A DNA stretch of 64,000 nucleotides from an uncultured bacterium (lineage in GTDB: Bacteria > Planctomycetota > Phycisphaerae > Phycisphaerales > SM1A02), in NCBI GenBank assembly GCA_903891095.1, contig CAITDI010000088.1, positions 1-64,000 on the forward strand. The letters run 5' to 3'. The notes under the pieces are model-generated. The model ran no database searches. It worked only from the letters and a program-made list of their open reading frames with translations, and was not told the origin of the DNA. Every line of letters starts with the position of its first letter. Position 1 is the stretch's first letter. Shown here in pieces: positions 13,944 through 47,780 of this stretch. Position numbers and translations under genes: made by a program.

Positions 13944-15533
13944 ATGTTCCCGCCGCCTGACCCGACCGAGCCGCCAGAGTCCCCGAACCCGGGGGCTTTC
14001 AACACGGGGGCTTCAAACCCGGGGGCTTCAAACCCGGGGGCTTTCAACCCGGGGGCTTCAAACACGAATGACGCGGGTGCGGAACGGACAGGTGGCGAAG
14101 CGACGATCCCCGCCGACGAGTCGCGGACCGAGCGCCTCGCGCGCCTCCTTCGCAAGGCGCGCATGCTCCCCGACGTGCCCGGCGTGTACCTGATGAAGGA
14201 CTCCGCGGGCACCGTGCTCTACGTCGGCAAGGCCTCGATGCTGCCGAACCGCGTCTCGAGCTACTTCATTCCGTCCGCCGACCTTGGCGGGCGCAAGCAG
14301 CCGATGCTCGACGAGGTCGTGGACTTCGACTTCATCGCCTGCGAGGGCGAGTGGGAAGCGCTCCTCATGGAGGCGCGCCTCGTCAAGGACATCCACCCGC
14401 CGTACAACGACCGGCTGCAGGACGACAAGACGTTTCCGTATCTCGCGGTGACGATGCGCGACGACTTTCCCGGCGTGTACATCACGCGCAATCCTGCAGA
14501 CGAGCGCTTCAAGGGCGGGCGCATCTACGGGCCGTTCGTGTCGGTCGGCGCGCTGCGGCACGCGATGCAGCTGCTGCAGCGCGTCTTCAAGTACCGCACG
14601 TGCGAGCTCGAGATCATCGACGGCGATCCGAAGAACGCGCGCTTTCGCCCGTGCCTGCTCGCGGCGATCAACCAGTGCACGGCGCCGTGCGCGGCGCGGA
14701 TCTCGAAGGACGCGTATCGCGCGGATGTCGACCGGTTCATTCGCTTCCTCGGCTCAAAGCGCAGCGCGATGCTGCGCGAGATGCGCGAGGAGATGGAGTC
14801 GGCCAGCGCGCGGCTTGACTTCGAGCGCGCGGCCGTGCTGCGCGACCAGATCAAGGCGATCGAGAAGCTCGATGAGCGCGAGACGCGCGGCGACGATGCC
14901 GAGTACGACTGGCAGCCCGAGGCGACGGGCTTCGTGCAGGATCCAGTCGCCGGCGCGCGCAGCCTCGCGCGCGTGCTCGGCGCGGACGAGCCGATTCGCT
15001 GTCTCGAGGCGTTCGATATCGCGCACCTCGCCGGCGGCGAGACGGTCGCGTCGAAGGTGTGCTTCATCGACGGCAAGCCGTTCAAGGAGGGCTACCGCCG
15101 CTACAAGATCCAGACGGTGTCGAACGACGACTTCAAGGCGATGCGCGAGGTCATCAGCCGCCGGTTCCGCGAAGCGGGCGAGGGCGTGGAGCTGTATCCC
15201 GATCTCATCCTGATCGACGGCGGAATCGGACAGCTCAACGCGGCGCTCGAGGCATTCGCGCAGCTGCGCGTGCAGCCGCCGCGCGTCATCTCGCTCTCCA
15301 AGAAGGAGGAGTTGCTGCATGTGCCAGGCGTCGCAGAGCCGATCCGCTTGGGACGCGAGCATCTCGGGCTGAAGCTCTGCCAGGCGATCCGCGACGAGGC
15401 GCATCGTTTCGCGCAGCACTACCACCATCTCCTGCGCGAGAAGAGCCTGATGGGCGAGACCGCGCGTCAGGTGCGGAAGAAGCGCGCGATCAAGAAACTG
15501 CAGGACGAGAAGGACGCGGGCGGGGACGCGTGA
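13944..15533 (+). CDS. uvrC: UvrC-like excinuclease subunit, short form
   Basis: A 529-residue nucleotide-excision-repair nuclease. The GIY-YIG domain starts with PGVYLMKD...VLYVGKA (about 79-98). A Cys-containing segment RPCLLAAINQCTAPC follows, then the UVR domain (DFERAAVLRDQIKAI). The RNase H-like 5'-incision domain has IRCLEAFDIAHLAGGE, GYRRYKI and LILIDGGIGQLNAA. The protein ends soon after this domain and lacks the C-terminal helix-hairpin-helix pair of the roughly 610-residue E. coli enzyme. Residues 17-41 are encoded by five 15-bp tandem repeats (NPGAS/NPGAF) and have no counterpart in the family. The stop overlaps the GTG start of the DUF167 gene. Confidence 0.85.
   Translation: MFPPPDPTEPPESPNPGAFNTGASNPGASNPGAFNPGASNTNDAGAERTGGEATIPADESRTERLARLLRKARMLPDVPGVYLMKDSAGTVLYVGKASMLPNRVSSYFIPSADLGGRKQPMLDEVVDFDFIACEGEWEALLMEARLVKDIHPPYNDRLQDDKTFPYLAVTMRDDFPGVYITRNPADERFKGGRIYGPFVSVGALRHAMQLLQRVFKYRTCELEIIDGDPKNARFRPCLLAAINQCTAPCAARISKDAYRADVDRFIRFLGSKRSAMLREMREEMESASARLDFERAAVLRDQIKAIEKLDERETRGDDAEYDWQPEATGFVQDPVAGARSLARVLGADEPIRCLEAFDIAHLAGGETVASKVCFIDGKPFKEGYRRYKIQTVSNDDFKAMREVISRRFREAGEGVELYPDLILIDGGIGQLNAALEAFAQLRVQPPRVISLSKKEELLHVPGVAEPIRLGREHLGLKLCQAIRDEAHRFAQHYHHLLREKSLMGETARQVRKKRAIKKLQDEKDAGGDA
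13991..14065 (+). repeat. In-frame 15-bp tandem repeat in uvrC, five units
   Basis: Five units of GGGGGCTTCAAACCC, alternating with variants containing CTTTCAA, cover 75 bp. Each unit adds five residues (G-A-S/F-N-P), so changes in copy number keep the reading frame. Confidence 0.85.
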
Positions 15534-28700: not shown

Positions 28701-30482
28701 GTGAAGCTCAAGACCTACCAGGCCTGGACGATGGCCGAGGCGCTGGCGTTCGTGAAGACGGACCTCGGCGCGGATGCGGTGATCCTCCATACGCGTACCT
28801 TCGAACGCGGCGGTTTCTTCGGCATCGGGCGCAAGTCCGTGGTCGAGATCACGGCCGCACGCGCAAAGGACATGCCCATGCCGCAGAAGGACCTTCCCAA
28901 GCGGCCCGAGCCTCGTGCAGCAGTGCGTGGCCCGGCGCAGTCGGAGCGAAGCGCGTCCCCGGAGCGAAGCGCGACCTCGGAGCGAAGCGCGACCTCGGAG
29001 CGTGCGGGTGATGTGTTGCGTGCGTCTGCCGCGGCGCGCGCCTACGGAGCGCAGCCGAGTGGTGGGATGGGCGGTGGTACTGGCGCAGTTCCGGCGGCAA
29101 CGCCGGCCGTCGCCGTCAACAAGCCGCTCGACATGGACAGCGAGCGCGAGAAGACGCGCCGCCTCGCGCAGGCGATGGCCGTGCAACTTGAGAAGCAGGC
29201 GATGGAACGCGCCACCGCGACCCGCAATGAGGACGTCGTGCGCGAGGTCGCCATCCGCGGTGCGCAGAGCGCGGCGGCCGCCGCTGCGTCGTCGGCTGCA
29301 TCGAATAGTGCGGCGCCAAACAACGGCCCTGCGCAGCGTTTCGTGCTGGTTCCCGAGCCGAGCGAGAGCGGGGGCGCCACGCGCCTGACCGCCGCGGTCG
29401 TTCGCGTGCCCGAGCCAACGCCGTCGATCTCGCCGACCCATTCGAGCCTCGAGCTTGCGCAGTCCGATGCGGGCAAGCCCGCCGCTCGCGCGACGACTCC
29501 CAGCGACGGTGAACTCGACGCGATCTCTGCCTTCGTCGGCCGAGTGCTGCAGCGCGGCGGCGCCGATGCCGCGGCTGGACCCGCGTCCAATCCCGTGTCT
29601 CCCCCCGGGTCCATCCCCGTGCGCGAAGTCGTCGAGATCCGCGCCGTCGCCGCCAAGCCCGCGCGCGCGCGCTCGCTCGAGACCGCCTACGCCAAGCTGA
29701 TCGAACAGGAAGTCGCCGAGGAACTCGCGACCCGCGTGCTCGCCGACATCGGCGCGCAGTTTGAGTCGCAGATCGAGGCCGGCGTCGAGCCTTCGCAGGA
29801 CGACCTTCGCATCGCCATCGAGCGCAGGCTTGCCGCGATGCTGCCGTCGGATGAGGGCGACGCGTTTGAGGTGCTCTCGGGACGCAACGGCGCGCGCCGC
29901 ATTGCGTTCGTCGGACCAACCGGCGTCGGCAAGACCACCACGCTCGCCAAGCTCGCCGCGCACCTCAAGCTCAAGCGCGGCCTGCGCGTGGGCATCGTCG
30001 CCGCCGACACCTACCGCATCGCCGCGGTCGACCAGCTGCGCACCTACGCGGAAATCCTCGGCCTTCCCGTCGAGATCGCCGCGTCTCCCAAGGACGCCGC
30101 GCGTGCCTGCGAACGCCTTTCCGACGTCGATGTCATCCTCATCGACACCGCGGGCCGCAGCCAGAACGACCACATGAAACTCTCCGAGCTGCGCGCGTTC
30201 CTCGCGAGCGCCAAGCCCGATGAGACGCATCTCGTCCTCTCCGCCACCGCAAGCGCACGCACGCTCGCGCGCGAGGCAGAGGCATTCGGCGCCGTCGGCG
30301 TCGATCGCATCGCACTGACTAAGCTTGATGAAGCGGCCACATTCGGCACGCTCGTCACGCTGGTCGAGAAGCTGGGGAAGCGCGTGAGCTTCTTCACGAA
30401 CGGGCAGGAAGTTCCGGATCACATCGAGTCCGCGCGAAGCCGTCGTCTGGCAGCGCTCGTACTGGGGAGCGAAGTCCGCTGA
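28701..30482 (+). CDS. flhF: Flagellar placement GTPase FlhF
   Basis: A 593-residue SRP-type GTPase that sets where flagella are built. The N-terminal B domain starts MKLKTYQAWTMAEALAFVK and DLGADAVILHTRTF. A long low-complexity linker (about 70-320) contains an 18-bp in-frame tandem repeat encoding SERSAT units (28942-29007). The NG domain starts at about 325, with GPTGVGKTTTLAKLA (about 405), ADTYRIAAVDQLRTYA and the DTAGR motif. It is longer than most FlhF proteins (about 360-500 residues) because of the linker. The stop shares bases with the flhG start (TGATG). Confidence 0.92.
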   Translation: MKLKTYQAWTMAEALAFVKTDLGADAVILHTRTFERGGFFGIGRKSVVEITAARAKDMPMPQKDLPKRPEPRAAVRGPAQSERSASPERSATSERSATSERAGDVLRASAAARAYGAQPSGGMGGGTGAVPAATPAVAVNKPLDMDSEREKTRRLAQAMAVQLEKQAMERATATRNEDVVREVAIRGAQSAAAAAASSAASNSAAPNNGPAQRFVLVPEPSESGGATRLTAAVVRVPEPTPSISPTHSSLELAQSDAGKPAARATTPSDGELDAISAFVGRVLQRGGADAAAGPASNPVSPPGSIPVREVVEIRAVAAKPARARSLETAYAKLIEQEVAEELATRVLADIGAQFESQIEAGVEPSQDDLRIAIERRLAAMLPSDEGDAFEVLSGRNGARRIAFVGPTGVGKTTTLAKLAAHLKLKRGLRVGIVAADTYRIAAVDQLRTYAEILGLPVEIAASPKDAARACERLSDVDVILIDTAGRSQNDHMKLSELRAFLASAKPDETHLVLSATASARTLAREAEAFGAVGVDRIALTKLDEAATFGTLVTLVEKLGKRVSFFTNGQEVPDHIESARSRRLAALVLGSEVR

Positions 30483-35254: not shown

Positions 35255-35388
35255 ACGCGCGGATCGGGCTGGGATTCGCGGTGTTTCCGCGCCCAGTCGG
35301 CGGCCACTGCTTGACAGAACCCGTCGCCGCGGACTAGAACATGTCCTGAGGCTTGGACTCAGCGTTCCGTTCATGTCGGGGAGAAGAG

Positions 35389-36249
35389 ATGGCAATGCAG
35401 CACACGCATCGGCTCGTTTACTTGGCTCGGCACATGTTCATCGACCTGCCCGAGGGGCGGTTCCTCGTCGACACGGGCTGCCCTGTCAGCTTTGGCAGCC
35501 CGGGCAGCTTTGGCAGCACGGGCAGCTTTGGCAGCACGGGCAGCTTTGGCAGCACGGGCACGGCGTCGTACGGCGGAACGACGCACCAACTGCCACGCAG
35601 CTACGGCTCGCTCACCATCGAGTCGCTGGCGGGGCTCGACCTCGATGCCCGCATCGGCCAGCGCTGCGCGGGGCTCATCGGCATGGACATCCTCGGTCGC
35701 GACCCTGTGTTGTGGGACGGTCCGCGCGGTCGGGCCGTGGTGCGGCCGTCGCCGGCGCCGGCAGGGGCGGTGCGCATTCCGGTGCAGCAGGTGCAGACGA
35801 TCCCCGTGATCGAGGTCACCGTCGCTGGTCGCTCCGCGCGGTGCATCTTCGATACCGGGGCGCAGTACGGATTCCTGACCGAGCAGCCCGTGAGCGATCC
35901 GCCCTTGAGCGATCCGTCCTTGAGCGATCCGCCCTTGAGCGATCCGCCCTTGAGCGATCCGCCCTTGAGCGAGCCGTTCATGATCGATCCCGCGTTGGAA
36001 GACGGCGAGTTCGACGACTTCCATCCCATGCTGCTCGGGTTCCGCTCGAAGGCGTGGAAGCTGCCCGTCGATGCGCAGGGCGTTCGCTTTCGCGAGCGGT
36101 TCGGGTTTCACGAGCCGCTGTCGTCGAGCATGCTGCGGCCGTTCGGCGTCGACGGGTTGATCGGCTGCTCCTGGCTGCCCACGCGGCGGGTGTGGTTCGT
36201 GCCCTCGGCGCCATCGATCGAATCGTGTCTCTTTGTCGCGGCGGGGTAA
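35389..36249 (+). CDS. Two-lobed retropepsin-like aspartic protease A
   Basis: A 286-residue protein with two aspartic-protease half-sites in one chain. Lobe 1: FLVDTGCP with D28-T29-G30, then the hydrophobic-Gly element CAGLIGMDILG (93-103). Lobe 2: CIFDTGAQYGF with D155-T156-G157, then VDGLIGCSWL (254-263). These pairs are what retropepsins show once per ~100-residue subunit, so this looks like a fused, self-contained dimer, smaller than pepsins. No signal peptide is visible. Two loops are expanded by in-frame repeats (18-bp units, residues about 34-57, and 15-bp units, about 168-197) absent from its neighbour. GGGGAGA precedes the ATG. Substrate unknown. Confidence 0.72.
   Translation: MAMQHTHRLVYLARHMFIDLPEGRFLVDTGCPVSFGSPGSFGSTGSFGSTGSFGSTGTASYGGTTHQLPRSYGSLTIESLAGLDLDARIGQRCAGLIGMDILGRDPVLWDGPRGRAVVRPSPAPAGAVRIPVQQVQTIPVIEVTVAGRSARCIFDTGAQYGFLTEQPVSDPPLSDPSLSDPPLSDPPLSDPPLSEPFMIDPALEDGEFDDFHPMLLGFRSKAWKLPVDAQGVRFRERFGFHEPLSSSMLRPFGVDGLIGCSWLPTRRVWFVPSAPSIESCLFVAAG
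35488..35559 (+). repeat. 18-bp in-frame tandem repeat in protease A
   Basis: Four units of AGCTTTGGCAGCACGGGC (one variant has CCG) encode G-S-F-G-S-T repeats right after the first DTG motif. The paralogue has a short loop here. Confidence 0.85.
35891..35980 (+). repeat. 15-bp in-frame tandem repeat in protease A
   Basis: Six units of TGAGCGATCCGCCCT or variants encode S-D-P-P-L repeats shortly after the second DTG motif. The last unit is degenerate. Confidence 0.85.
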
Positions 36250-36313
36250 GACCGGCGCGCCGTTCGCTTGTTTGCATGTCTGTCTGTCACAACTCATTCG
36301 GGAGAAAAGAAAG

Positions 36314-37009
36314 ATGCCACAGGACTCTGTTTCTGCGTTTGCCTATCCGCTCGTCTATGAGGCCAACCACATGTTCGTCGAGCTGCCCGAGGGCAAGTTC
36401 CTCGTCGACACCGGCGCGCCGCACACCTTTGGGCGCACGGGTTCGGTCACCTACGGCGCGCGTCGTGTCGCGATCCCCAGCGCCACGCTGGGCGCGAACG
36501 TCGACTCGCTTGAGAAGCTCCCCGGCGTCCGCTGCGACGGCCTCCTCGGCATGGATCTCATGTCGACCGCGCAGGTGCTGTGGGACGGTCCGACAGGCAA
36601 GGCGATTGTGGGCGAGACGGTCGTCGCGGCGGGTGCTCGGCGCGTGCCGTACCGATCGCTGATGGGTGTGCCCGTCGTCGACGCGAGCATCGGCGGCCGC
36701 AAGCTCTCGTGCATCTACGACACCGGCGCGCAGTACGGCTACGTGCTGCGCCGCGAGTTCGCCGAGTGCGGCGAGGACGACGGTGCGATCGAGGACTACA
36801 ACCCCATCATGGGCAAGATCCACTCGCCCGCGTGGCGCGTGCCTGTCGACATGCACGGCGTGCAGTTCCAGGAGCGCGTGGGCGTGCTGACGGGGATGTT
36901 CGCGGGGATGCTCGGCATGGTCGGCGTCGACGCGATCGTCGGCTGCTCGTGGATGCCTTCGCGCCGCGTGTGGTTCATGCCGGAACAGGCGTCGTTCGCG
37001 GTCGCGTGA
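36314..37009 (+). CDS. Two-lobed retropepsin-like aspartic protease B
   Basis: A 231-residue paralogue of protease A without the repeat insertions. Lobe 1: KFLVDTGAPHTFG with D32-T33-G34 and CDGLLGMDLM (74-83). Lobe 2: CIYDTGAQYGYV with D136-T137-G138 and VDAIVGCSWM (205-214). Shared blocks with A include VLWDGP, PAWRVPVD / KAWKLPVD, VQFQERVG / VRFRERFG and RRVWFMP / RRVWFVP. It shows the minimal form of this design: two ~100-residue lobes, each with catalytic D-T-G and a hydrophobic-hydrophobic-Gly motif. GGAG nine bases before the ATG. It lies 64 bp after A and its end overlaps the convergent next gene by 35 bp. Confidence 0.75.
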   Translation: MPQDSVSAFAYPLVYEANHMFVELPEGKFLVDTGAPHTFGRTGSVTYGARRVAIPSATLGANVDSLEKLPGVRCDGLLGMDLMSTAQVLWDGPTGKAIVGETVVAAGARRVPYRSLMGVPVVDASIGGRKLSCIYDTGAQYGYVLRREFAECGEDDGAIEDYNPIMGKIHSPAWRVPVDMHGVQFQERVGVLTGMFAGMLGMVGVDAIVGCSWMPSRRVWFMPEQASFAVA

Positions 37010-37502
37010 ACGCGAGCACCCGAGCGCGCGGCCACGGCAGGAGCTTGCAGAGCACGTCGATCTCGGCGGTGTCGACCTCTGGGTCGAGCCGCGCGATCGC
37101 CTCCTGCATCTCCATCACATGCGGGAACCCAGGCTGCTGGAACGACGCGAGCAGGTTCGCAGCCAGCGTCATCAGGTGGTCGAAGTCGGTCACACCCTCG
37201 CGGTGGTCGCGCTCGTGCGCCGCCGCGAGGGCCGCCGCCTCCATCGCGGGCGCGCCGAGGTTGGCGCGCGCGTTGGCGCAGGCGACCAATTGGTGCGCAC
37301 GGAGCATCTCGACGGCGCCTTCATCGCGAACAGCCGACCGCCACAGCGCGCGTGCGGCGTATGCGCAGTCGAGCATCTCGATGACCTCGGCGCGCGTGCG
37401 CTCGCTGGCCTCGACGAGGTCCCACGCGCGATTGTTGAAGCCAGCGGCAAGCTCCCGCACCGAGCGCTGAGGATCGGTGAGGTTGGTTCGGTTCGCGTGC
37501 AT
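36975..37502 (-). CDS. Alpha-helical TPR-like protein of unknown function
   Basis: A 175-residue, mostly helical soluble protein. The opening FNNRAWDLVEASERT, a middle FDHLMTLAANLLA and a run of Ala-rich helices resemble a family of small TPR-like proteins of unknown function that I recall from several phyla. It is the last gene of a minus-strand run (CoA-transferase subunit, ABC-F ATPase, this gene), starting three bases after the ABC-F stop. Its 3' end overlaps the 3' end of protease B by 35 bp on the opposite strand. Confidence 0.65.
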   Translation of the reverse strand: MHANRTNLTDPQRSVRELAAGFNNRAWDLVEASERTRAEVIEMLDCAYAARALWRSAVRDEGAVEMLRAHQLVACANARANLGAPAMEAAALAAAHERDHREGVTDFDHLMTLAANLLASFQQPGFPHVMEMQEAIARLDPEVDTAEIDVLCKLLPWPRARVLAFTRPRTTPVPA

Positions 37503-42402: not shown

Positions 42403-43251
42403 TCACGGCGTCGGCGATGCCGGGGTGCCTGGCTTGGTCTTGGGTGCGTCCGGCGCGCCAGCGGGCGCGGCGGGAGCCGTCGCCGGAGCAGCGGGAGCCG
42501 TCGCCGGAGCGGCGGGAGCCTTGGCCGGCGCGGCCGGCGCGGTTGCGGGAGCGGTTGCTGGCCTGGTCGCGGCCGGGAGACCCTGGATCGGCACCGGCGC
42601 GTTCTTGGCGAGTTCCTCGGCCTTTTCCTTGCTGATGAGCTCGGCCTTGGTGACGATCACATCCTGCACCGGCCAGTCGCGCATGCCGTGCTTGGTGGTG
42701 CACTGCGAGGCGGCGATCAGGTCGACGATCGCCATGCCCGAAGTGACCCTGCCGAACACCGCGTAGCCCGCGCCGCCCGAGATCGGCTGGTCGAGCGAGT
42801 CGTTGTCCTTGAGGCTCACGAAGAACTGGCTGGTCGCGCTGTTCGGATCGTTGGTGCGCGCCATCGAAAGCGTGCCGCGCTTGTTCTTGAGGCCGTTCTG
42901 CCACTCGTTGGCGATCGGCTTCTTGGTGGTCTTCTGGGCGCCGTCCATGCTAAAGCCGCCGCCCTGGATCACGAAGCCCGGCACCACGCGGTGGAACACC
43001 GTCTCGTTGTAGAAGCCGTCCTTGATGTAGCTCTCGAAGTTCTCGACGCTGATCGGCGCCTTGGCGCGGTCGAGCTCGATCACGATGTAGCCCTTGTTGG
43101 TGTAGAAGACGGCGTACTCCATCGCGGCCGCCGCAGTCGCAGCAGGCTGTGCGGCGGGCGCAGCGGGCTTGGCGGGCGCCTCGGCCTGGCCGAAGGCAAG
43201 CGAAGCGGAGGCGAGCAGGGTCACGGAGACGGTGAGAAGGGTCTTTGTCAT
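42403..43251 (-). CDS. Secreted cyclophilin-type peptidyl-prolyl isomerase
   Basis: A 282-residue exported PPIase. It has a signal peptide ending A-F-G-Q (about 21), an Ala/Pro linker, then the cyclophilin barrel (about 44-215) with FHRVVPGFVIQGGGF (active-site Arg), SMARTNDPNSATSQFF and YAVFGRVTSG. The last 50 residues are a Pro/Ala/Thr-rich tail made of ATAPAAPA-type repeats, seen also as 24-bp-like repetition in the DNA. It probably assists folding of exported proteins. AGGAAA precedes the ATG, and a TATGAT box lies about 25 bases upstream. Confidence 0.88.
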   Translation of the reverse strand: MTKTLLTVSVTLLASASLAFGQAEAPAKPAAPAAQPAATAAAAMEYAVFYTNKGYIVIELDRAKAPISVENFESYIKDGFYNETVFHRVVPGFVIQGGGFSMDGAQKTTKKPIANEWQNGLKNKRGTLSMARTNDPNSATSQFFVSLKDNDSLDQPISGGAGYAVFGRVTSGMAIVDLIAASQCTTKHGMRDWPVQDVIVTKAELISKEKAEELAKNAPVPIQGLPAATRPATAPATAPAAPAKAPAAPATAPAAPATAPAAPAGAPDAPKTKPGTPASPTP

Positions 43252-45969: not shown

Positions 45970-47780
45970 AGCGCTGGATGAACGCACTTCGCACGCTTCT
46001 GGCGACGGCCTGCGTGATCGCATGCGGCGTCGTTTGCGCGCAGCCCGCGCGCGGCCATGCGTCGGCGGATGCGTCGGTGGTTGCGTCGGCGGATGCGCCG
46101 GCGGATGCGCCGGCGGATACGCCGTTCGCACAGCGCGTCGACCTCACGCCGCTCGCGACGGTCGCCGTGCAGAACGACGGCCGGCTCAAGAGCATGTCGA
46201 GCCTCGCGAGCGAGCTCATGAGCGCGGTGTCAGGGCCGAAGGAGATCGCGGGGCAGCCGCCGCTCTTCACCTACATCGACATGGTGCTGCGCCCCGACGC
46301 GTACCGCGACGCCGACGTGATCTACGTCAAGAGCGCGGGTCCGCGCGCGCGCATCGCCGAGGCGGTGCTCGCCGACGATCTCCTGCCCGAAACGCGCACG
46401 CGCATGGACGCGTTCCGCGCCAGCGGCCTGATCTCCGAGACGATGCTCTCGCGGCCCGGCGTGCTCAAGGTCCTGCGCGAGATGCAGCAGGATCTCGTGC
46501 GCACCGCGAAGTCCATGGACGCGATCGAGTCGGCGCTCGCCGTCAAGGACCCGCGCTTTCTCCTCGCGCGCATGCAGATCGTCCCGCGCGGCGACGGCGA
46601 CACGCAGAAGCCGTGGCACACGATCGCCGACGTGATGTTCGCCGACGGCAAGGAGCCCGTGCCTGGCTCGATGCTGCTGCTCGCCGAGAAGCGCGATCCG
46701 CCCGCCGATCTCTCGCCCGAGGTTCGCGGCGCGGTCGGCGACGCGTGGCGTGCGTTCGTCAACGCGTGGCTCAAGACCGACGCCGACGGCGTGAACACCG
46801 CCGCCGCCAAGCTCGCCGCGGTGCTGCCGACGATCGATCCCGCGAACTATCCCGATCGCGGCCGCCTTGCGTGGGAGCACTGGTACTTCGCCAACGGCCA
46901 CATGACCAAGACATGGCTCGTCTACATGGCGAGCGCGATCTTTCTCCTGCTCGGGTTCGTGTGGAAATGGCCGCGCGCGCGACGCATCGGCTTCGGCATC
47001 TTCGCCGTCGCGGTGGTGCTGCACACGGCGGCGGTGTTCCTGCGTTGGTACATCGCGGGCCGCTGGCCGAACTCGAACATGTTCGAGGCCGTCACGACCA
47101 GCGCGTGGTTCGGCTGCCTCGGCGCGATCGCGATCGAGTGCTTCGTACGACGCACCGCGATGTGCGGGCTGTTCGCGCTCGGCGGCGCGGTGACGGCGAT
47201 GGTCGCGCTGATGGCCGCGTATTTCCTGCCCGTGCAGCTCAACGCGAACATCTCGAACATGATGCCCGTGCTGCACGACGTGTGGCTCTACATCCACACC
47301 AACGTGGTGATCTTCAGCTATGTGCTGATCTTCATGGCGGCGATCTCGGCGCTGCTCTATCTCGGGCACCGCGCGCTCGGCGGTGCCGCGACCTTCGCGC
47401 GCGTCGGCGGGGCGGGCAGCCTGATCGTCGCTGGCAACCACGGCGAGGAGCGCATGGCCACGGGGCGCGCGGCATTCGGCGAGATCCTCGACGGCGTGAC
47501 GATGGTGCTCATGGAGCTGTCGTTCGTCATGCTCTGGACCGGCATCGTGATGGGCGCGATCTGGGCCGACCACTCGTGGGGGCGCCCATGGGGCTGGGAC
47601 CCGAAGGAAGTGTTCGCGCTGAACACGTTCATCGTGTTCGCGGTGCTGGTGCACGTGCGGCTGAAGGTCAAGGACAAGGGGCTGTGGACCGCCGTGCTCG
47701 CCGTCGTCGGCGCCGCGGTGATGCTCTTCAACTGGATCGTGATCAACTTTGTGATCACGGGGTTGCATAGCTACGCGTGA
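45966..47780 (+). CDS. ccsA: Cytochrome c heme-lyase subunit CcsA/CcsB-like
   Basis: A 604-residue protein. Residues 1-310 are a signal peptide with an extracytoplasmic domain not found in short CcsA proteins. The C-terminal half has about eight TM segments and the heme-handling tryptophan motif WADHSWGRPWGWDPKE (WWD domain), with NMFEAVTTSAWF upstream. With the overlapping ResB-like gene it forms a complete system II cytochrome c synthase. The N-terminus contains short SADA/PADA repeats (about 33-52). The 3' end (last 28 bp plus 17 bp) is duplicated at 47860-47904. Confidence 0.88.
   Translation: MKRWMNALRTLLATACVIACGVVCAQPARGHASADASVVASADAPADAPADTPFAQRVDLTPLATVAVQNDGRLKSMSSLASELMSAVSGPKEIAGQPPLFTYIDMVLRPDAYRDADVIYVKSAGPRARIAEAVLADDLLPETRTRMDAFRASGLISETMLSRPGVLKVLREMQQDLVRTAKSMDAIESALAVKDPRFLLARMQIVPRGDGDTQKPWHTIADVMFADGKEPVPGSMLLLAEKRDPPADLSPEVRGAVGDAWRAFVNAWLKTDADGVNTAAAKLAAVLPTIDPANYPDRGRLAWEHWYFANGHMTKTWLVYMASAIFLLLGFVWKWPRARRIGFGIFAVAVVLHTAAVFLRWYIAGRWPNSNMFEAVTTSAWFGCLGAIAIECFVRRTAMCGLFALGGAVTAMVALMAAYFLPVQLNANISNMMPVLHDVWLYIHTNVVIFSYVLIFMAAISALLYLGHRALGGAATFARVGGAGSLIVAGNHGEERMATGRAAFGEILDGVTMVLMELSFVMLWTGIVMGAIWADHSWGRPWGWDPKEVFALNTFIVFAVLVHVRLKVKDKGLWTAVLAVVGAAVMLFNWIVINFVITGLHSYA

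Follow-up and report, generated by a model that had tools for sequence, protein, structure and literature searches.

Two adjacent genes in a 64,000-nucleotide stretch of DNA from an uncultured bacterium of the order Phycisphaerales (GenBank assembly GCA_903891095.1, contig CAITDI010000088.1, positions 1 to 64,000; hereafter the window) each encode a protein with two aspartic protease-type active sites in one chain, which raises the question of what kind of protease, if any, they represent. The genes, here called A and B, lie on the forward strand and are separated by 64 bp. On the basis of sequence comparison and predicted models, they are likely to be paralogues within a small clade of minimal single-chain, two-lobed aspartic proteases of clan AA, which probably arose from a class of longer tandem Asp_protease_2 proteins through loss of the flap region of the first lobe. 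The parts of the two genes are listed here.

35378..35386, + strand: Shine-Dalgarno-like sequence of A, preceding the ATG (read directly)
35389..36249, + strand: gene A, 286-residue two-lobed aspartic protease-like protein (open reading frame, ORF; AlphaFold2 model)
35470..35478, + strand: A, active-site motif of lobe 1, D28-T-G (ORF reading; alignment of relatives)
35674..35682, + strand: A, hydrophobic-hydrophobic-Gly (hhG) motif of lobe 1, LIG 96-98 (ORF reading; alignment)
35851..35859, + strand: A, active-site motif of lobe 2, D155-T-G (Arg instead of Asp in the orthologue on contig L018)
36157..36165, + strand: A, hhG motif of lobe 2, LIG 257-259 (ORF reading; alignment)
36300..36309, + strand: Shine-Dalgarno-like sequence of B, preceding the ATG (read directly)
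36314..37009, + strand: gene B, 231-residue minimal two-lobed aspartic protease-like protein (AlphaFold2, Foldseek, VIA-align)
36407..36415, + strand: B, active-site motif of lobe 1, D32-T-G (ORF reading; alignment of relatives)
36542..36550, + strand: B, hhG motif of lobe 1, LLG 77-79 (47 residues from D32 to G79)
36719..36727, + strand: B, active-site motif of lobe 2, D136-T-G, followed by A139
36773..36853, + strand: B, long hairpin of lobe 2, residues 154-180 (model and alignment; probably the sole full flap)
36935..36943, + strand: B, hhG motif of lobe 2, IVG 208-210 (ORF reading; alignment)

The two half-sites of each protein, D-T-G with a downstream hhG, stand at exactly the residues named in a previous sequence-only reading of this DNA, which had proposed a tandem pair of proteases built from fused retropepsin-like halves. 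Among 206 stop-to-stop frames of at least 150 residues in the window, double sets of D[TS]G and hhG were found in A and B only, with the hhG 40-110 residues past the Asp and the sites 60-180 residues apart (spacings set by the authors). Chance was ruled out as their source by a control with shuffled residues, which gave a mean of 0.045 double-set frames per window and two such frames in none of 200 shuffles. A and B are identical at 98 of 225 aligned residues (44%) and are therefore homologous. An artefactual tandem or assembly duplication was likewise ruled out, given this degree of identity and the recurrence of the pair on contig L018 beside the same DUF1080-type gene. Across the relatives, the Asp of the first site is kept in all 14 rows that cover it, once as DSG, L009 being without this site because its contig ends there. 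The Asp of the second site is kept in 14 of 15 rows, and DTGA at this site is invariant apart from the same exception, the A copy of L018 (14/15 rows). The 13- and 15-row sets used here omit L010, L013 and L015, which are contig-end or degenerate sequences.

Structure prediction, proposed in the sequence-only reading as a check, bears out a pepsin-like arrangement; to the degree that models can decide, its refuting case, a fold with DTG loops that do not meet, is not what was obtained. The AlphaFold2 model of B, obtained from a 10-sequence alignment with no templates, has a mean predicted local distance difference test (pLDDT) score of 92.2 and a predicted TM-score (pTM) of 0.88, and that of A, obtained from 13 sequences, reaches 83.6 and 0.81, with low confidence in its tandem arrays. 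In both models the lobes are predicted to pack as in pepsin, in one bilobed chain. Foldseek matched B to 496 PDB chains at E <= 0.001, the best 50 of which are bilobed chains of pepsin fold (one of them a xylanase inhibitor) plus 9iy9. In VIA-align 2, where chains that were not listed are not counted as absent, 9iy9 was the top match of both B (Z 15.9, 3.7 Å, 216 aligned residues) and A (Z 16.3, 3.5 Å, 223 aligned), followed for both by pepsin-fold chains with Z of about 13 over roughly 200 residues of both lobes. Rhizopuspepsin was matched by B with Z 13.7 (198 aligned, 3.2 Å), and the matches extend across B residues 5-231. The models and DTG sites thus present the layout of the pepsin family (A1), a bilobed chain with one catalytic Asp per lobe, and not that of retropepsins (A2), which have one lobe per chain and act as homodimers, since A and B have two lobes and two DTG sites in each predicted chain. 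Each lobe would be a retropepsin-like (Asp_protease_2-type) half contributing one catalytic Asp, and the two DTG loops would meet at the pseudo-twofold axis of a single chain, so that a dimer would be unnecessary.

By sequence, the kinship lies elsewhere. When the clade profile was compared with PDB sequences, in line with the profile search that had also been proposed, the best match was a tethered HIV-1 protease dimer, in two stretches (E 2.4e-5), followed by Ddi1 and other retropepsins, and no pepsin appeared among the best 60 of 200 rows. Since retropepsins come first in the profile matches and the models are pepsin-like, the halves would be retropepsin-like by sequence and the layout pepsin-like, and "single-chain retropepsin with pepsin layout" is a fair label for A and B; the claim of fused retropepsin-like halves is upheld to this extent. 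Retropepsins, Ddi1 and bacterial dimers such as RloA share with A and B the sequence profile and the DTGA motif, but have one lobe per chain, are dimeric and carry a flap on each chain, as passages of PMC12239564 describe for RloA. Shewasins, the bacterial homologues of pepsin in family A1, resemble A and B in being bilobed, single-chain and intracellular (passages of PMC2761423 and PMC4814920), but have pepsin-family sequences, and shewasin D is of about 49 kDa; they are set apart here by description. As these passages report bacterial pepsin homologues predicted or shown to be intracellular, the contrast drawn in the sequence-only reading with pepsins as secreted zymogens does not hold. An argument for activity at neutral pH from the Ala that follows DTG was also dropped, since shewasin A, which has Ala at this place, works best at pH 4, according to a passage of PMC4814920.

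Family databases register the kinship faintly. The Asp_protease_2 family (PF13650) scores 24.2 bits with B and 20.7 with A, against a gathering cut-off of 24.3, and RVP scores 15.0 and 14.3, respectively, against 20.7, while the top Pfam row of A is Extensin_1, located on its repeats. No pepsin-family Pfam match to A or B was listed up to E 10 with the HMMER filters on, the NCBIfam scan of the two proteins gave no protease match, and PF13650 had no match in the window's own genome at E 0.01. Of eight clade members scanned, seven fall under every Pfam protease cut-off; the eighth, from the phage-like contig L074, passes that of RVP (23.0 vs 20.7).

Is a two-lobed single chain of this kind singular? 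A profile search across the phylum gave matches in 25 of 392 genomes, with strong full-length ones in G000, G045 and G480 (two of which were already in the query alignment) and weak, partial ones elsewhere. Together with one ORF from the order-level search, 24 ORFs from this search make up a set of 25 distant ORFs. In 21 of them two D[TS]G sites are present; three show a single site in the frame that was used, and the first site of L048 reads DTA. Twelve of the distant ORFs were aligned (alignment A3) and ten were scanned with Pfam, others being excluded because their start was uncertain, their frame had one site or was very long, they were fused to ankyrin, or the sets were kept small. Nine of the ten scanned match PF13650, seven of them in two stretches, and five carry PDZ; L051 has no match. 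Comparison of the clade profile with the 12 longer proteins by hhalign (probability 98.8, E 4.4e-17) covers both lobes and supports homology with Asp_protease_2 proteins. Against the PDB, the profile of the 12 finds 9iy9 best, in a match that spans both lobes (E 5e-14), and one pepsin, polyporopepsin, is among the further matches (E 7.1e-5). A strongly hydrophobic N-terminus is present in ten of the 12 (1.89-2.99 on a crude index), and in the other two a hydrophobic stretch lies deeper in the ORF, behind what by eye is probably a wrong start. Fused Asp_protease_2 halves therefore seem to be an existing, mostly exported kind of protein. The two-lobed single-chain class is not new, as longer members are known in the phylum and 9iy9 is solved. 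What stands of the proposed "natural single-chain retropepsin" is the presence of two retropepsin-like lobes in one chain; its singularity does not, given the two-site ORFs (21/25), the double Asp_protease_2 matches (7/10) and 9iy9.

The differences from these longer proteins define what is unusual here. The protein of 9iy9 (Bacteroides fragilis, 2025), described as a putative endopeptidase, has, like A and B, two Asp_protease_2-type lobes and two DTG sites in one chain; unlike them, it is a 420-residue chain, is named an exported protein and has an extra N-terminal region (the match starts at residue 156), and identity over the structural alignment is 13-14%. The Planctomycetota tandem proteins share with A and B two homologous lobes and two DTG/DSG sites, and differ in their length (312-501 residues, n=12), in the hydrophobic N-terminus, in PDZ (5/10) and in having a flap region in both lobes. 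The A/B clade mostly spans 200-240 residues, and its smallest bilobed forms, also the smallest in this analysis, 202-231. No strongly hydrophobic N-terminus was found in 13 clade rows with the crude hydrophobicity index, used here in place of a dedicated predictor (1.78 at the highest, against 1.89 and above in ten of the longer relatives, a narrow margin). The clade proteins are most likely cytosolic, which agrees with the intracellular form suggested before. The unusual element is thus the minimal clade itself, short, without a strongly hydrophobic N-terminus and with the flap region of lobe 1 gone, together with its connection to phages.

The shortening affects lobe 1 only. In the fold of clan AA, the flap is located between DTG and hhG, and that of pepsin is in the N lobe. 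From the Asp to the Gly of hhG, lobe 1 measures 46-47 residues in each of the nine cellular rows that cover the site and are not A copies, 52, 70 and 77 in those of the A clade, and 32 and 30 in two proteins from phage-like contigs, against 73-81 in the 12 longer relatives, so that it is about 30 residues shorter in the clade. Lobe 2 spans 71-83 residues in the clade (73-83 in the nine cellular non-A rows; 97 and 104 in two expanded A copies) and 67-82 in the longer relatives. The clade therefore differs from tandem proteins of the 9iy9 type, whose two lobes are both full-length and both include a flap region. The gaps in the alignment of lobe 1 with the profile of the longer lobe 1 fall past the DTG loop and ahead of the post-flap strands. 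In the model of B, hairpins are short in lobe 1 (residues 44-53) and long in lobe 2 (154-180), the latter bearing the motif D161-[FYH]-x-P164, of which the Asp and the Pro are kept in 15 of 15 rows, while the residue after the Asp is Phe, Tyr or His in 14 of them. From the alignments and the predicted secondary structure we infer that lobe 1 would have lost about 30 residues at the flap relative to the longer tandem proteins of the phylum, and that, with this region lost, the substrate cleft would probably be covered by a single flap from lobe 2, bearing the invariant D-x-x-P and lying on the side opposite to that of pepsin.

The history of the two copies can be followed in the same genus. On contig L018 (equated with genome G709 by contig number and coordinates), an A-B pair lies next to the same DUF1080-type gene as in the window (76% identical), and the sigma-factor gene (81%) is set off by one gene more than in the window; in the latter, the neighbours are sigma-factor, DUF1080-type and ABC-F-like genes. 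On L055 (G707), the gene past an A copy encodes an SBF-family transporter, and so does the gene past the L018 locus (L055:1219-2706 and L018:8651-9379, both on the - strand), a position taken in the window by an unknown ORF and the ABC-F-like gene. The A copies form one clade in the tree (support 100/99), which indicates that the duplication would predate the split of these lineages; the placement of the B copies is poorly supported. The L018 A copy (L018:6864-7745, + strand) has R-T-G-A at the second site, with CGC for the Arg, and its own Gly-rich and PGNLV-type insertions, and is likely a pseudo-enzyme in the making. Most of the extra length of the window's A over B consists of two in-frame tandem arrays:

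35487..35560, + strand: 18-bp tandem array in A, just past the first DTG loop (repeat scan; low model confidence)
35886..35976, + strand: 15-bp tandem array in A, past the second DTG loop, with overlapping longer-period rows to 35990 (low model confidence)

Minisatellite-like arrays, with units of 12-21 bp, seem numerous in the window: besides these two inside gene A, others occur at 13986-14063, 28941-29002, 42467-42554 and 46057-46118. A 175-residue ORF on the - strand (36975-37502), without a Pfam match, converges on B and overlaps its end by 35 bp. Around the loci of nine relatives no conserved operon partner was found among the ORFs; neighbours are shared only between the window and L018 and, to some extent, with L055. 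The single protease gene of G045 directly adjoins a toxin-antitoxin-type pair (L012:177-1344, - strand) of a RES-domain gene and an Xre/MbcA/ParS-like gene, the latter slightly below the Pfam cut-off.

The clade is rare and patchy. Searches with B matched 10 of 151 genomes in the family and 11 of 301 in the order, where L017, the weakest match, belongs with the longer proteins. Members are present in six of 16 genomes of the genus and in 12 of 181 of the family, as read from 16 matches at E <= 1e-5, four of them weak and partial; the latter count includes a copy in G042. This copy (L015:1321-1779, - strand) looks decayed, keeping the first DTG, missing most of the middle and having DTD at the second site. 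A scan of genome contigs with B alone gave 25 candidates and no relative. Scans of viral contigs revealed two members, the smallest in this analysis, on a 36-kb IMG/VR contig (L074) and a 43-kb contig (L077):

L074:2944-3552, + strand: 202-residue two-lobed aspartic protease relative
L077:5953-6576, + strand: 207-residue two-lobed aspartic protease relative

The first gene adjoins SSB, Erf-like and RecE-like genes, with an endolysin nearby, and the second contig encodes an endolysin and a tail assembly chaperone. Both proteins retain the two DTG sites and D-x-x-P, the first hhG of the L077 protein being VRG. Retropepsin-like phage proteins in BFVD (from a crAss-like virus, Myoviridae sp. ctNQV2 and phage cr111_1) are comparable as phage-borne members of the clan AA fold, but have 170-182 residues, are matched over 120-147 columns and are read as about one lobe.

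A bolder account of these data would be an undescribed clade of minimal, cytosolic, natural single-chain retropepsins, both phage-borne and chromosomal, in which the flap of lobe 1 is lost and that of lobe 2 kept, a mirror image of pepsin reached independently through a separate fusion and used by phages in the host; it is put forward tentatively, as possible rather than probable. That the gene is of phage origin altogether, spread by phages for takeover or maturation, with the chromosomal copies as domesticated cargo, appears rather unlikely. The patchy distribution among hosts and the two phage-like contigs would fit such an origin, and both phage proteins fit the clade profile (E 2.5e-22 for L074 and 1.5e-16 for L077; scores 143 and 108) far better than that of the longer family (E 5.4e-6 and 3.2e-5; scores 44 and 40). 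However, they are no more than 20-29% identical to the other rows of alignments A4 and A6, and the window copies lie beside sigma-factor, DUF1080-type and ABC-F-like genes. Moreover, tblastn searches of 50,697 phage records with B and with each of the two phage proteins gave no match, viral scans with the latter returned their own contigs only, a viral scan with A5 found no relative, and PHROGs holds no family for A, B or the phage proteins. A report of phages using a bilobed aspartic protease was not found in open-licence PubMed Central, which is weak evidence.

Several observations weigh against the reading of A and B as members of a clade of proteases. Pfam reaches only lobe 2 of each protein, under the cut-offs. 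The structural matches of both include Triticum xylanase inhibitors, which are non-proteolytic, and in the L018 A copy the second catalytic Asp is replaced by Arg, so that some members of the clade may not be catalytic. Between the window and L018, a simple count method gave ratios of non-synonymous to synonymous substitution rates (dN/dS) of 0.32 for A and 0.66 for B, compared with 0.39 and 0.28 for neighbours; the value of B is high for a constrained enzyme, and dN is 0.35-0.36 in A and B against 0.13-0.17 in the neighbours, an at least twofold faster change. The inhibitor matches, the Arg and this fast evolution could all be explained by a pseudoprotease or peptide-binding protein, which would keep the pepsin-like fold and bind peptides or inhibit another enzyme without cutting, an explanation that is nevertheless unlikely, because both Asp are kept in every row other than that of L018A, two very diverged phage proteins included, and DTGA at the second site is otherwise invariant. 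A and B appear constrained, if loosely. Under the reading as minimal two-lobed proteases, B is taken as a putative conserved enzyme and A as an older, drifting duplicate, which carries tandem repeats in its window copy and seems to be losing its catalytic site in another lineage.

The sequence-only reading had also seen in these proteins a possible link between retropepsins and pepsins, that is, a primary fusion of retropepsin halves as an ancestral step towards pepsins. The combination of retropepsin-closest sequence, pepsin layout and very small size could suggest such an intermediate. The scores of lobe 2 do not discriminate (64 with the first lobe of the longer proteins, 53 with the second). 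In the same scoring, which omitted L018A and L009, lobe 1 gave 62 against the longer lobe 1 and 38 against the longer lobe 2, a pattern that suggests a shared fusion followed by trimming, and its internal gaps fit trimming as well. As lobe 1 resembles a trimmed version of the longer lobe 1, the clade is more likely, though not proven, to be derived rather than ancestral; with its rarity (12/181 family genomes) counting in the same direction, an intermediate is very unlikely and the proposed link does not find support.

Least credible is an obligate two-protein system, the "partner pair" of the sequence-only reading: the genes are adjacent on the same strand, recur together in L018 and include a well-supported A clade, but the A copy of L055 stands alone with no second match found in G707, the genomes behind L008, L011, L012, L014, L016 and L027 have one match each, and the loss of an active-site Asp in the L018 A copy, with the lone copy of L055, makes such dependence unlikely.

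The relation of two-lobed pepsins to dimeric retropepsins is a long-standing question, as noted in a passage of PMC2761423. If the reading as a minimal protease clade is true, a single-chain enzyme of 200-230 residues with an asymmetric, apparently reversed flap would allow a direct test of the contribution of each lobe and flap, free of the two-fold symmetry of retropepsins and of the bulk of pepsins. Routine annotation tends to overlook the clade, as the Pfam scores of its members illustrate. Furthermore, the phage members suggest that a bilobed aspartic protease may act inside bacteria on behalf of phages.

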